From the NCBI GenBank assembly GCA_944324235.1, contig CALUVN010000016.1:1-41768 (forward strand): 41,768 nt of DNA, read 5' to 3'. The notes below the pieces were generated by a model. That model ran no database searches. It saw only the letters and a list, made by a program, of their open reading frames with translations, and was not told where the DNA came from. Source of the stretch: Candidatus Gastranaerophilales bacterium. GTDB taxonomy: Bacteria; Cyanobacteriota; Vampirovibrionia; Gastranaerophilales; Gastranaerophilaceae. A program made the position numbers and the translations under genes. Below, in pieces: positions 1,312-26,175 of this stretch; position 1 is the stretch's first letter; the number at the start of each line of letters is the position of its first letter.

Positions 1312-2598
1312 TTATCTTTTTTTGTTATCAATATTGATTAAGCCCGGCTCAAGCTTTGAACCTGTAAAGAGTTCTCTCAGCGCAAACTGTGTTTTCGGGA
1401 GAACGTATGACAATAAGAAACTGCTCAGAGCCACGTTTGATATAATATTACCCGATTTAACGCGCAGAGCTTTTTTAGCAAATTTAGTTAAATTTTTAGA
1501 ATTCAGGGCATCTTTAGAAAACGAAAATATATCTTTTCCAAAGTTTTCCAAATCCTTTATATCAACAAAAATTCTCGGATCACGGCTATCTTGTGTGAGC
1601 ATTGTAACCTTTTTAAACATTGACGCATATTTTGTAAAAGGGCTCTGCGGGTTATTGTCAATGTATTCAAGCATCTGAGCGCCATTCATGCGGCCAAGAA
1701 AATCAAAACGGTTATTTTCCACATCAGATATGAATTCTTTGTTATTAAGCAGTTTAGGATCAAGATTCACATTGCTTTTGAAGATTCTGGCAGAAGTGAA
1801 ATTAAACAACTTTTCAATCTGTTTTGGTGCTACATAATTTAAATACAGCATACCGGCCATTTTAAAAGCGATGTCAAAGGGTTCATAACCTTTACGCGCA
1901 GTTAGCACCCTACCGACAGCATAACCGCCGTCAATTGCAGCCATTTTATCCGGAGTGGTAAGAGTTGCAACAGTTGAGGCAAACCCTGTAAATGATACGT
2001 CTTTCTTCTGTCCGAAAGTGGTTATATCAGACATGCCTAAGATATCAGAGTAATCCGGCTGATTTTGTTTTTCTTTTTCTGCAATTTTACGGGAAAGTGC
2101 AAATATACATTTAGGAATGATAAAACCGATTAAAGCCATCGGGATTGCGACAGCTGCCGTGAATTTTTTGGATACTAAACTTTCAAATGCTTTTTTATTG
2201 TCTCTAACTTTAATCAAATCTGCAACTGCTGCTTGCACTTCTTTTGATGTTGAATTAGCAAATTTTTTGATATTAAATTCAATCCCCTGAACAGGATTTT
2301 TAACAGCGTCTTCTTTAAAGAGCCTTGCACTAATTTTAGGGTTGTAACCTTTTTTAGATATAAACATATCTGAAGCAGCCTCAACAACAGGAATAGCCCC
2401 GAGCCAGACCGCAGACGTAGTGTATTCATCAATTGTGCGCTCACGCACTGCATAACGAGCTACTTTTGGCGATTCATCTATATTTTGCTTATACGTCAAC
2501 GCAATCTTAATAGGGTTTTCAACCCCGCAATCTCTGACCAGTAAGGGGTAAACAGAATTATTATTTCCAATTGCCGAAATTATATTAACTAGTGACAT
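1312..2598 (-). CDS. Conserved-type membrane protein of unknown function under a leader-peptide attenuator
   Basis: I do not recognise this protein of 428 residues. Two hydrophobic helices can be seen: one near residues 147-167 (IPMALIGFIIPKCIFAL) and one near the C-terminus (ISNVALSSFLLSYVLP). The rest is mixed helical, lysine-rich sequence without cysteine clusters or known motifs. The start is set at the ATG at 2598. A TTG six codons upstream is in frame, but it overlaps the ribosome binding site GGAGG at 2610-2614, which sits 11 bases before the ATG. The gene is alone on its transcript: a terminator follows it and a 190-base leader with a histidine-rich ORF precedes it. Nothing in the protein suggests a histidine biosynthetic enzyme or His-tRNA synthetase. 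A transporter or membrane-associated role is possible but not shown. Confidence 0.75.
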   Translation of the reverse strand: MSLVNIISAIGNNNSVYPLLVRDCGVENPIKIALTYKQNIDESPKVARYAVRERTIDEYTTSAVWLGAIPVVEAASDMFISKKGYNPKISARLFKEDAVKNPVQGIEFNIKKFANSTSKEVQAAVADLIKVRDNKKAFESLVSKKFTAAVAIPMALIGFIIPKCIFALSRKIAEKEKQNQPDYSDILGMSDITTFGQKKDVSFTGFASTVATLTTPDKMAAIDGGYAVGRVLTARKGYEPFDIAFKMAGMLYLNYVAPKQIEKLFNFTSARIFKSNVNLDPKLLNNKEFISDVENNRFDFLGRMNGAQMLEYIDNNPQSPFTKYASMFKKVTMLTQDSRDPRIFVDIKDLENFGKDIFSFSKDALNSKNLTKFAKKALRVKSGNIISNVALSSFLLSYVLPKTQFALRELFTGSKLEPGLINIDNKKR

Positions 2599-2630
2599 TA
2601 TTTTTTTAACCTCCAATTCATCAATAAAAT

Positions 2631-2660
2631 AACCTCTTACGCTTTTATCCCGAAGAGGCT
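2631..2660 (-). terminator. Terminator hairpin of the leader (attenuator)
   Basis: Read on the minus strand, AGCCTCTT (2653-2660) pairs with AAGAGGTT (2631-2638), eight pairs including one G-U, followed by ATTTTATT. The U tract is imperfect. The hairpin lies between the histidine-rich leader ORF and the ribosome binding site of the unknown gene, where an attenuator belongs. Its left arm can instead pair with the end of the leader ORF. Confidence 0.55.
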
Positions 2661-2707
2661 ACTTATTTTAGAATTGAATTATTAATTAAAACCGCGCATC
2701 ATCAATT

Positions 2708-2770
2708 CTATAGCCCCTTCAGGAAGCTATGATGTTGATGATGATGTAATTGTGCAGTTCTTAAAATCAT
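2708..2770 (-). CDS. Histidine-rich leader peptide (20 aa)
   Basis: A 20-codon ORF with an ATG at 2768-2770, a ribosome binding site AAGGT six bases upstream (2776-2780) and a TAG stop at 2708-2710. Residues 9-14 read HHHQHH, so five of six consecutive codons are CAT. It lies about 110 bases before the start of the unknown membrane-protein gene on the same strand and overlaps RNA segments that can pair with a downstream terminator arm. This is the layout of amino-acid biosynthetic leader peptides, whose translation, not product, does the work. The alternative is a chance reading of a CAT-rich repeat; the ribosome binding site, the stop position and the matching RNA arms argue against that. 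Confidence 0.6.
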   Translation of the reverse strand: MILRTAQLHHHQHHSFLKGL

Positions 2771-2834
2771 ATTTTACCTTTAAATAAATCTGTTACTATA
2801 ATGTTAACAATAAAAATTTTAAATTGCAATACCC

Positions 2835-3119
2835 TCACTCATTTAATGAAAATATTTCTTTAATCCTATTTATTTTATCCACGTCATCAGTTTTAAACAA
2901 GACAGTTTTATCTTTTGAAGTTTCTCCTCTAACTATATCAATAGAAGTTTTTGGGATTTTAAAGGTTTTAGAAAGAAATTCAATAAGAGCCTTGTTAGCC
3001 TTTCCGTCGACAGGTTGCGCCGTAATTTTAACTTTTATACTGCCGTCATCACTTTTAATAATCTCATTCTTAGATGCGTTTGGCGAAATTCTCAAATTCA
3101 GTAAAAAACCTTTTTCCAT
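2835..3119 (-). CDS. YggU / DUF167 (UPF0235) family protein
   Basis: A 94-residue protein matching the small, widespread YggU (DUF167) family in length and pattern: the N-terminal strand LNLRISPNASKNE, the central KVKITAQPVDGKANKALIEF block and the C-terminal IVRGETSKDKTV block. The molecular role of this family is not established. The gene is divergent from the Rel gene, with 93 bases between the two starts. There is no convincing ribosome binding site. A possible -10 box, TATGAT, about 11 bases before the ATG with a weak TTCATA 17 bases further up, would give a very short leader. The next gene downstream is the attenuated unknown gene, so readthrough into its leader is possible. Confidence 0.85.
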   Translation of the reverse strand: MEKGFLLNLRISPNASKNEIIKSDDGSIKVKITAQPVDGKANKALIEFLSKTFKIPKTSIDIVRGETSKDKTVLFKTDDVDKINRIKEIFSLNE

Positions 3120-3212: not shown

Positions 3213-5435
3213 ATGACAGAAAAACCGCTATTCGACGATATAAGACAAAAATTAATAGATCAGCACAGAGACGATGAAGAAATTAAACAAATAGAAAAAG
3301 CCTTTGAATTTGCAAAACGCCTTCACGAAGGGCAATACAGAATTTCAGAAGAGCCTTATATCATTCACCCTGTCGAAGTAGCAAAAATTCTAATAGATTT
3401 AAAAGTAGACTCACACACACTTCAAGCCGCATTTTTGCACGATATACTCGAAGATACGGATACAAAACCTGAAGAAATCCGTGAATTGTTCGGAGATGAT
3501 GTTTTAAACCTCGTTCAAGGGGTAACAAAACTCGGAAAATTACAGTTTAAATCAAAAGAAGAACGTCAGGCAGAGAATTTCAGACGTCTTTTTATTGCAA
3601 TGGCAAGCGATATAAGAATAATTTTTCTTAAACTTGCAGATAGACTGCACAATATGCGAACCCTGAATTTTATGTCGGTCAACAAACAGCAAAAAATAGC
3701 AAAAGAGACCTTAGATATCTTTGCGCCGCTTGCAAACCGCTTAGGTATCGGGAAAATTAAGGCCGAACTTGAAGATTTATCACTGAGATACCTTGAACCT
3801 GATAAATACTTTGAAATAGCCCAGCTGGTCTCCCAGAAAAAAGCCGAACGCGAAATGACTGTCAATATGCTGATTGAAAAAATTTCAAATGACGTCAAAA
3901 AAAGCGGAATAAACGCACAAATTACGGGACGCGCAAAGCACTATTACAGCATCTACAGCAAAATGAAGCGCTTGAACATAGCGTTTCACGACTTATACGA
4001 CATCACAGCCGTACGCGTAATAGTCGATACGGAAAAAGAATGCTACGAAGTTTTAGGGCTTATTCACTCCCAATTTAAACCAATCCCCGGAAGATTTAAA
4101 GATTACATCGCAATGCCGAAAGGCAACCTGTACCAATCTTTGCACACTTCAGTCATCGGTCCTCGTTCAAAACCGCTGGAAGTTCAAATAAGAACATGGC
4201 AAATGCATGAAGTCGCTGAATACGGGGTTGCGGCGCACTGGAGATATAAAGAAAAAGGTTCTCAAAAAGCAGATAAGGCATCTGATTTACAATTTTCGTG
4301 GATGAGAAAGCTCGTCGAATATGACAAAGACATGACAAATGCCGAAGATTACGTGAATTCGGTAAAACTGGATTTATTTTCCGATCAGGTTTTTGCATTC
4401 ACCCCGAACGGCGACGTCATAGATTTACCTGTTAATGCAACCCCTGTTGATTTTGCATACAGAATTCACTCTGATGTCGGAAGCAAAACAATTGGTGCTC
4501 TTATCAACGGACGTATCGCACAGCTTGATACAAAACTGAATAACGGCGACATAGTAGAAATTATAACATCTAAAACCCCTGCGCCGCGTCTGGACTGGTT
4601 GAACTTTGTTGTCACAAAGCAGGCTTCCTCTAAAATTCGTCAGTGGTTTAAAAAGAACAAACGCGAAGACCACGTTGAAATGGGCAAAACAATGCTTGAA
4701 CGCGAATTGACCAAAGCCGTTTTTGACGATTATGTAAAAAAAGAAGAGTTTGAAAAAGTTGCGAAAATTATGAATTATCAGAGCGCGGAAGATTTATTCG
4801 CAGCTCTCGGCTACGGTGAAACCACAGTTAACAAAATAGTAAATAAACTTAAAAAGCCGCAGCCTAAAACACCTGAACAGACATTCACAGGTCACACACA
4901 TAAAAAATCAGAAAAAGATATCGTTGGGCTCGAAGGTATGCTTTATTCCTTTGCCCGCTGCTGTTCACCGATTCCGGGAGAACCTATCGTCGGCGTTGTA
5001 ACAAGATCTAAAGGGGTTTCTGTCCACCGTCTGGATTGCAAAACTCTTGATTCAATTCCGCCGGAAAGATTAATGGACATACACTGGTCTGGTGATAACA
5101 CAAGCCGAACCTACACAACCACCATACGTGTTGAAACCGCAGAAAAAATAGGTTTGTTAAAAGATATTGTCGGAGCTGTATCAGACAACAACTCAAATAT
5201 TATTTCTGCAAACGTTAAATCAAAAGCCGGTAAGGTAGGTATTATTGAACTCAGCATTGAACTTGATAATATTGATACGTTTAAAAAAGTTATCAACAGC
5301 ATCCAATCCATACCAGATGTTTACAGCGTAAAGAGAATTCAAACATCAGCGCACCATACGTCACAAGGCCGAAACAAAAATAACAGCAATTCAAACAGTC
5401 AAAAAAACAGACCCCAAAAGAAAAAATCAAAATAA
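3213..5435 (+). CDS. rel: Bifunctional (p)ppGpp synthetase/hydrolase, RelA/SpoT family
   Basis: Makes and degrades the starvation alarmone (p)ppGpp. The 740 residues carry the full long-RSH order: HD hydrolase domain (about 25-190, with HDILEDT giving H76-D77), synthetase domain (about 230-345, YSIYSKM and GNLYQSLH), TGS domain (about 390-450), a conserved cysteine block (FARCCSPIPG, about 575) and a C-terminal ACT domain (about 645-715). The synthetase motif at 294-297 is RFKD, the RxKD form of bifunctional Rel enzymes rather than the ExDD of synthetase-only RelA, so both activities are predicted. The last 30 residues are a low-complexity tail rich in Asn, Ser, Gln and Lys, beyond the usual end of the ACT domain. 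It has its own promoter. A histidine-responsive leader lies just upstream on the other strand. Confidence 0.96.
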   Translation: MTEKPLFDDIRQKLIDQHRDDEEIKQIEKAFEFAKRLHEGQYRISEEPYIIHPVEVAKILIDLKVDSHTLQAAFLHDILEDTDTKPEEIRELFGDDVLNLVQGVTKLGKLQFKSKEERQAENFRRLFIAMASDIRIIFLKLADRLHNMRTLNFMSVNKQQKIAKETLDIFAPLANRLGIGKIKAELEDLSLRYLEPDKYFEIAQLVSQKKAEREMTVNMLIEKISNDVKKSGINAQITGRAKHYYSIYSKMKRLNIAFHDLYDITAVRVIVDTEKECYEVLGLIHSQFKPIPGRFKDYIAMPKGNLYQSLHTSVIGPRSKPLEVQIRTWQMHEVAEYGVAAHWRYKEKGSQKADKASDLQFSWMRKLVEYDKDMTNAEDYVNSVKLDLFSDQVFAFTPNGDVIDLPVNATPVDFAYRIHSDVGSKTIGALINGRIAQLDTKLNNGDIVEIITSKTPAPRLDWLNFVVTKQASSKIRQWFKKNKREDHVEMGKTMLERELTKAVFDDYVKKEEFEKVAKIMNYQSAEDLFAALGYGETTVNKIVNKLKKPQPKTPEQTFTGHTHKKSEKDIVGLEGMLYSFARCCSPIPGEPIVGVVTRSKGVSVHRLDCKTLDSIPPERLMDIHWSGDNTSRTYTTTIRVETAEKIGLLKDIVGAVSDNNSNIISANVKSKAGKVGIIELSIELDNIDTFKKVINSIQSIPDVYSVKRIQTSAHHTSQGRNKNNSNSNSQKNRPQKKKSK

Positions 5436-25680: not shown

Positions 25681-26175
25681 TTATTTTTTAGCAGCAACAG
25701 CTTTTTTAACATCGTTAGTTAAATCTGCACCGCCGTAAAGCACAGCACCTTTGGCAACAACTACTGTATAACCTTTAGCTTTTGCAGTTTCTTCTATAGT
25801 TTTAGAAATAGAAGAGTCTATTTGAGACAATTTAGCAGTGTAAGATTTTTCAAATTTTTCTCTTTTAGAAACTAACTCTTTGTTATACTTTTCTTCAAGT
25901 GATTTTTTCTTACTTTCATCAGTAGTTGCAGCAACATCTTTTCTTGCTTTTTCAATGAAAGTAATCAATTCTTTAGCATTGGCTTCCTGTTCTTTTTTCA
26001 AAGCCTGAACAGCAGGTGAAGCATTAACAACAGCTTGGACATCAACAACTGCAACAGTAGCCGGTGCAGGTGCAGCCGGAGCGGCAGCATTAGAAGCAGT
26101 ATCAGCAAGAGCAACAGAAGCACAAAGTGTACATGCAACAACACCGCTTAACAAAAATTTGAATTTGTTTGTCAT
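25681..26175 (-). CDS. Skp/OmpH-family periplasmic chaperone
   Basis: Holds unfolded outer-membrane proteins in the periplasm. The 164 residues have a Sec signal peptide (about 1-24, cut after VALA), an Ala/Pro linker, the conserved strand VAVVDVQAVVNASPAVQ, a long charged coiled coil (about 60-125) forming the tentacle, and the closing strand block GYTVVVAKGAVLYGGADLTNDV, the OmpH pattern. Length is normal. AGGAG precedes the ATG. It is divergent from the outer-membrane TpsB-like gene across 262 bases, a functional pairing that fits client and chaperone; this is inference. Confidence 0.88.
   Translation of the reverse strand: MTNKFKFLLSGVVACTLCASVALADTASNAAAPAAPAPATVAVVDVQAVVNASPAVQALKKEQEANAKELITFIEKARKDVAATTDESKKKSLEEKYNKELVSKREKFEKSYTAKLSQIDSSISKTIEETAKAKGYTVVVAKGAVLYGGADLTNDVKKAVAAKK

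Follow-up and report, generated by a model that had tools for sequence, protein, structure and literature searches.

A putative histidine-codon attenuator preceding the gene for a histidine-free orphan protein in Gastranaerophilales

The closest described counterpart of the switch reported here is the attenuator of the enterobacterial his operon (Rfam family RF00514, His_leader), which relies on the same kind of His-rich peptide and the same logic of protector, antiterminator and terminator. His-leader attenuators have also been described in Firmicutes (in the Bacillus cereus group, the Peptostreptococcaceae and the Erysipelotrichales), and the passages of PMC9413887 that concern them report alternative structures and a short leader that has three to five His codons, features that recur at the locus studied here. 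Attenuators that hide a ribosome binding site rather than terminating transcription are known as well (as outlined in part of PMC9413887), and biosynthetic enzymes induced by starvation are low in the cognate amino acid (Alves and Savageau 2005, as cited in a passage of PMC4209129). We present evidence that, in a Candidatus Gastranaerophilales bacterium, a His-specific ribosome-mediated attenuator controls an orphan gene whose product probably aids histidine acquisition, a reading to which we assign a probability of roughly 80%.

The window, by which we mean the whole stretch of DNA analysed (41,768 nucleotides), is contig C16 of a 1.94 Mb genome in 80 contigs with a completeness of 99.82%. 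Leader and target gene lie on its reverse strand (Table 1), flanked by a GAPDH gene (256-1260, +) and a RelA/SpoT-type gene (3213-5435, +). The target gene begins with an ATG at 2598 preceded by GGAGG (2614-2610), its nearest public relatives are found in Candidatus Gastranaerophilales bacterium MAGs (92, 83 and 82% identity), and in most cases it is a unit of its own, next to which a convergent gene often lies. The original prediction had remarked on the proximity of a (p)ppGpp gene. Within flanks of 1.5 kb, a RelA/SpoT-type gene lies near the leader at 17 of 41 orthologous loci, the window included (the others being L003, L004, L005, L009-L011, L015, L017, L044-L047, L049-L051 and L055); it is thus a partly conserved neighbour, and it is outside the transcription unit of the target. 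We also note a small ORF on the same strand as the leader (2835-3119, (-), MEKGFLLNLRISPNASKNE...), which ends just before the leader promoter and which we take to resemble the DUF167/YggU family.

Table 1. Elements of the leader region and the target gene, in positions of the window
Feature	Positions	Strand	Remarks
-35-like element, TTGCAA	2824-2829	(-)	likely promoter; by eye; 17-nt spacing to 2801-2806
-10-like element, TAACAT	2801-2806	(-)	likely promoter; by eye
Leader ORF	2708-2770	(-)	20 codons, MILRTAQLHHHQHHSFLKGL then stop; ribosome binding site AAGG just upstream
Segment A	2729-2746	(-)	His control codons CAT CAT CAT CAA CAT CAT
Segment B	2712-2723	(-)	CCTGAAGGGGCT; end of leader ORF; pairs with E (ON); covariation, shuffles
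Segment C	2697-2708	(-)	GAATTGATGATG; starts at last base of stop codon; pairs with His codons or D
Segment D	2671-2678	(-)	TTCAATTC; partner C in ON, ribosome binding site of target in OFF
Segment E	2649-2660	(-)	AGCCTCTTCGGG; partner B in ON, F in OFF
Segment F	2631-2638	(-)	AAGAGGTT; 3' arm of hairpin, then U-rich tract 2630-2622
Segment G	2610-2619	(-)	GAATTGGAGG; ribosome binding site of target; 5' part pairs with D (OFF)
Target gene	1312-2598	(-)	428 aa; all-helical, hydrophobic segments, zero His, orphan family

The leader ORF had been predicted to hold 20 codons, with five CAT codons among six and a stop at 2708, and both its coordinates and its codons agree with the sequence; its His run reads HHHQHH. 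The search for the target protein covered 59 relatives at first and was then extended to 288 family genomes, and for each of 121 orthologs (42-93% identity, about 25 genera) we examined the 400 bases upstream. Every one of these (121/121) is preceded by a short, His-rich leader ORF with three to six His per eight codons, in runs that include HHHHHH, HHTHHH, HHHNHHHCH, HRHHH and HHIHHH, and over the 121 leaders His is encoded by CAT 503 times and by CAC 34 times. The original prediction had staked itself on orthologs retaining the His codons and the paired arms; across relatives the His-codon run is indeed conserved, and both alternative structures covary. The promoter layout (TTGC.., 17 nt, TATGAT/TATTAT) recurs, by eye, at three orthologous loci (L003-L005).

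Downstream of the His codons the leader RNA can form two mutually exclusive structures. The pairing of 12 bases that had been proposed between the end of the ORF (B) and the left arm of the terminator (E) is present, with two G-U pairs among its 12 bp, and it excludes the hairpin as proposed. That hairpin (AGCCTCTT, 2660-2653, with AAGAGGTT, 2638-2631) exists too, and the T-rich tail that had been noted behind it (ATTTTATTG) amounts to a mediocre U-tract in the window. The His codons pair exactly with segment C, again as anticipated, TTGATGATG (2705-2697) being the exact complement of CATCATCAA (2743-2735). Segment D alternates between GAATTGA (2708-2702) and GAATTGG (2619-2613), the latter within the ribosome binding site of the gene; the control logic first suggested was right in setting the ORF end against the terminator arm and missed this sequestration. 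Segment C has two roles, as a protector with the His codons and, via 2708-2702, as the partner of D in the ON structure.

Covariation was counted in alignment A1, which comprises 57 non-redundant sequences. For the OFF structure (D:G and E:F), 87.9% of cells are paired, a value that falls to 50-60% when the pairing is slid by one column; 12 of 19 pairs are changed on both sides, and there are 113 double-change cells against 36.4±8.2 in shuffles. The ON structure (B:E and C:D) is paired in 89.9% of cells, with 12 of 21 pairs changed on both sides and 125 double-change cells (39.3±7.8 in shuffles). Both-side changes occur in nine pairs of the B:E helix, which has 14 pairs in the alignment, and in 8/10 pairs of the E:F hairpin, and RNAalifold, unaided, predicts part of B:E. 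When compared with dinucleotide shuffles of 80 non-redundant sequences, the duplex between the ORF end and its downstream partner is better in 76 (p<=0.05; median z -4.6), that between the His codons and C in 43 (p<=0.05), and that between the ribosome binding site and its upstream partner is significant in 37. Outlier genera that cannot be aligned keep the plan with different sequences, as in genus g25, where CTCCTTTA stands opposite TAAAGGAG of the gene's ribosome binding site.

These structures suggest a mechanism by which the supply of histidine could be sensed. If histidine is plentiful, the ribosome would reach the leader stop and cover B and most of C; E could then pair with F, and D with the ribosome binding site of the gene (OFF). 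If histidine is scarce, the ribosome would stall at the early His codons and leave B free; because the His codons under the ribosome cannot then pair with C, B would pair with E and C with D (ON), which would exclude both the hairpin and the sequestering helix and allow the gene to be transcribed through and translated. Were the leader not translated at all, the His codons would pair with C and the OFF structure would form. Folding of the window RNA predicts the ON structure (-41.5 kcal/mol) with a ribosome masked at the second His codon, the OFF structure with a ribosome masked at the stop codon, and the protector together with the OFF structure for the naked RNA, while a ribosome stalled as late as the last His codons should by prediction have no effect. 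The predicted accessibility of the ribosome binding site in the stalled as against the terminated state shifts as expected, by over 0.2, in 33 of the 121 leaders and the opposite way in 3, the expected shift being seen in just 33 because AT-rich RNA folds diffusely; since mean accessibility discriminates poorly, we used duplex tests specific to each helix together with covariation. Judged by sequence comparison, the gene is almost certainly regulated by histidine through an attenuator.

The output of the switch differs in part from what had been envisaged. The hairpin is followed by at least six T in eight nucleotides in 40 of 57 orthologs, and in genus g11 (L006, L033, L036 and L054) the U-tract is missing and D:G, which covaries, is kept. 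As the U-tract can be missing where D:G is kept, sequestration would be the constant output and termination an optional one; a terminator, which the original prediction took as the output, is plausible in many orthologs and absent from others. The best explanation appears to be that the switch acts on one gene, chiefly by making its ribosome binding site inaccessible or accessible.

Only one gene appears to be under this switch. A covariance model (R1) recovers no site but that of the window in the genome to which the window belongs, and a single clear site in every gene-bearing relative with any score; nor did we find other leaders: the genome contains nine HH.HH codon patterns, among which the window's alone is plausible as a leader, hisS of the same genome has no His leader, and the hisD loci of relatives have no convincing one. 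We therefore dropped the idea of a wider His regulon.

The target had been described as no known histidine gene, and this holds: the protein has no match above cut-off in Pfam or NCBIfam and no meaningful sequence match in the PDB, nor is it similar to the known families of histidine transporters (HisXYZ*/HisJQMP ABC, YuiF). An AlphaFold2 model built from 55 sequences is all helical (pLDDT 80.5, pTM 0.74). Foldseek searches with this model gave no convincing fold (best E 0.62), and VIA-align gave a best Z of 6.3, with an rmsd of 7.3 over 159 residues, a score of a kind common for helical models. About three or four hydrophobic segments are predicted, which is few for a classical permease; on account of some three such segments it is plausible that the target is a membrane protein. 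Several orthologs (L009, L014, L041 and others) have an in-frame stop within the aligned stretch and perhaps have a shorter C-terminus or are pseudogenes.

What sets the protein apart is its lack of histidine. The window protein has none, 41 orthologs together have 6 His in 17,584 residues, and with seven more proteins behind a His leader the count is 10 in 20,857 (0.05%), 39 of the 48 having no His at all. By comparison, His makes up 1.06% of 22 sister proteins with another leader, 0.96% of four proteins with no recognised leader and 1.50% of neighbouring proteins; each sister protein has at least two His and each His-leader protein at most two. No other amino acid is comparably depleted between the His-leader and the sister proteins. 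The best explanation we can offer is that histidine has been purged from the target to allow its synthesis under histidine starvation. We note a second His-free ORF in the window (25681-26175, (-), 164 aa, MTNKFKFLLSGVVACTLCASVALAD...), apparently encoding an exported protein with a signal peptide.

The distribution of the gene also points to histidine. The genome of the window has hisS, and a search of it for histidinol dehydrogenase gave no match. Among the 288 family genomes the gene is present in 167 and hisD in 81; 5 have both, 162 only the gene, 76 only hisD and 45 neither (Fisher p=3e-31), and after removal of genomes bearing trpA or argG the counts are 5/161/31/43 in the same order (p=8e-14). 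As the loss of trp and arg genes correlates with that of hisD, confounding by lifestyle is thereby reduced rather than removed. Stratified by genus, co-occurrence is observed in 5 genomes against 13.5 expected (z=-5.3), the strata being approximate, with genus unlisted for some genomes that have neither gene. In genus g22, 8 genomes have only the gene and 10 only hisD, with zero overlap, and the sole genome of g57 that carries the gene is without hisD. With hisD alone as the marker of the his pathway, the gene thus shows phylogenetic complementarity with histidine biosynthesis: the host group has probably mostly lost histidine synthesis, and the gene is almost confined to genomes without hisD; given the 5 genomes with both and the 45 with neither, the gene cannot be the sole solution to auxotrophy. 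We note that one hisD in a gene-bearing genome (G190:C10:29542-30756) scores about 90 bits above every other hisD of the family and could possibly reflect contamination or recent transfer.

The original prediction, that a His attenuator precedes a gene of unknown function, is therefore borne out by the conservation among orthologs, the covariation, the His-free target and the anticorrelation with hisD. As for the function of the target, its near-exclusive presence in genomes without hisD and its alternation with hisD inside genera suggest acquisition that replaces biosynthesis, and we see about even odds that the protein contributes to the supply of histidine, whether as an importer or as a component of a scavenging system. 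Were it truly an importer, a candidate role already raised by the original prediction, it would be a novel type and would account for the way in which these auxotrophs get their histidine. Rather less probable, and still a serious contender, is that the same starvation control acts on a protein with no part in uptake, such as one for envelope remodelling, dormancy or peptide release, which would have lost its His for no other reason than that it has to be made at such times. Control of a transporter alone is nevertheless known, from the HisR regulon of histidine auxotrophic Actinobacteria (as described in part of PMC9413887). The target has no transporter fold or family and few hydrophobic segments, and its paralogs have a different leader and a normal His content, all of which would suit such a protein; the near-exclusive association with genomes that lack hisD, and the alternation within genera, would not. 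His-rich peptides bind metals, and the leader peptide might accordingly sense Zn, Ni or Cu, with the metal rather than charged tRNA-His governing the progress of the ribosome; we regard this as very improbable, as it predicts neither a target purged of His nor an absence from hisD genomes, and the length and interruptions of the His run vary in the way expected of control codons. Least probable of all is that the short ORF is a by-product of RNA structure in which CATCAT is conserved for its pairing with GATGATG rather than for histidine, for although the preference for CAT over CAC (503:34) and the pairing of the His codons with segment C in many genomes would fit, A:C beats shuffles in just 43 of 80 sequences when the His run is found in 121 of 121, genera such as g25 have the run without A:C pairing (L053, p=0.85; L078, p=0.67), and the His depletion of the target requires histidine itself.

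Upstream of paralogs of the target stands another kind of short ORF, likewise conserved, that ends in (M/A/L)NLxWGL and a stop, usually with RR near its start (L002, at G000:C15 near 38061; L019-L021, L023-L030, L201, L203, L205-L207, L209-L212 and L215). The corresponding DNA pattern occurs at most once in each of 13 genomes and, where checked, directly before a paralog. At L019, ATAACTCAAG lies opposite CTTGAGTTAT just before the GGAGG of the gene, a pairing that may resemble, by analogy, that of a translational attenuator or arrest peptide. Neither Arg nor Trp proved to be depleted in the paralogs that carry this leader. A distant paralog, L022 (G034:C93, 26% identity), has two His-rich short ORFs (MNTLFTQAERHHHHN and MFLIYNLHFNHHHHCEHH...) upstream of 1486 and 1 His in 461 residues, and possibly represents an independent or very divergent His switch. 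Tentatively, and at somewhat less than even odds, we suggest that the target represents a novel class of proteins for histidine acquisition, His-free so as to be produced in deep histidine starvation, and that it is one branch of a larger family whose other branches use the conserved RR..NLxWGL leader, with different leader signals tuning the members of a single family for nutrient acquisition.

Lastly, we consider how this switch relates to those already described. A search of the window at Rfam gathering thresholds gave no match and a permissive search placed His_leader and Thr_leader far below threshold, RF00514 being the top-scoring family over the stretch (15.8 bits, E 2.6, against a gathering score of 49). 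Our literature search returned no paper on leader peptides in Gastranaerophilales, and the abstracts of papers on auxotrophy in the group seemingly do not cover such a switch. Histidine attenuation is thus extended to a lineage with no earlier report in the papers searched, and an orphan family widespread in Gastranaerophilales, the non-photosynthetic gut relatives of cyanobacteria, gains a testable function. The pairing of a leader rich in one amino acid with a protein purged of the same amino acid may also offer a route for finding genes of nutrient starvation. Unlike RF00514, which precedes histidine biosynthesis genes, the attenuator here precedes a single orphan gene rather than the his operon, sequesters a ribosome binding site in addition and occurs in hosts that are mostly without hisD. 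The Firmicutes leaders belong to a different phylum and, in the relevant passages of PMC9413887, have as targets his biosynthesis operons and/or the HisXYZ* ABC transporter, with no His-free target described there. As in the attenuators that hide a ribosome binding site in part of PMC9413887, D:G hides that of the regulated gene; here a facultative terminator is added, its U-tract depending on the genus. Compared with the cognate bias discussed in a passage of PMC4209129, the depletion is near-total (0.05%) and affects a protein that is no known biosynthetic enzyme. The kind of switch is therefore known, whereas the target family, the lineage and the His-free protein appear to be new.
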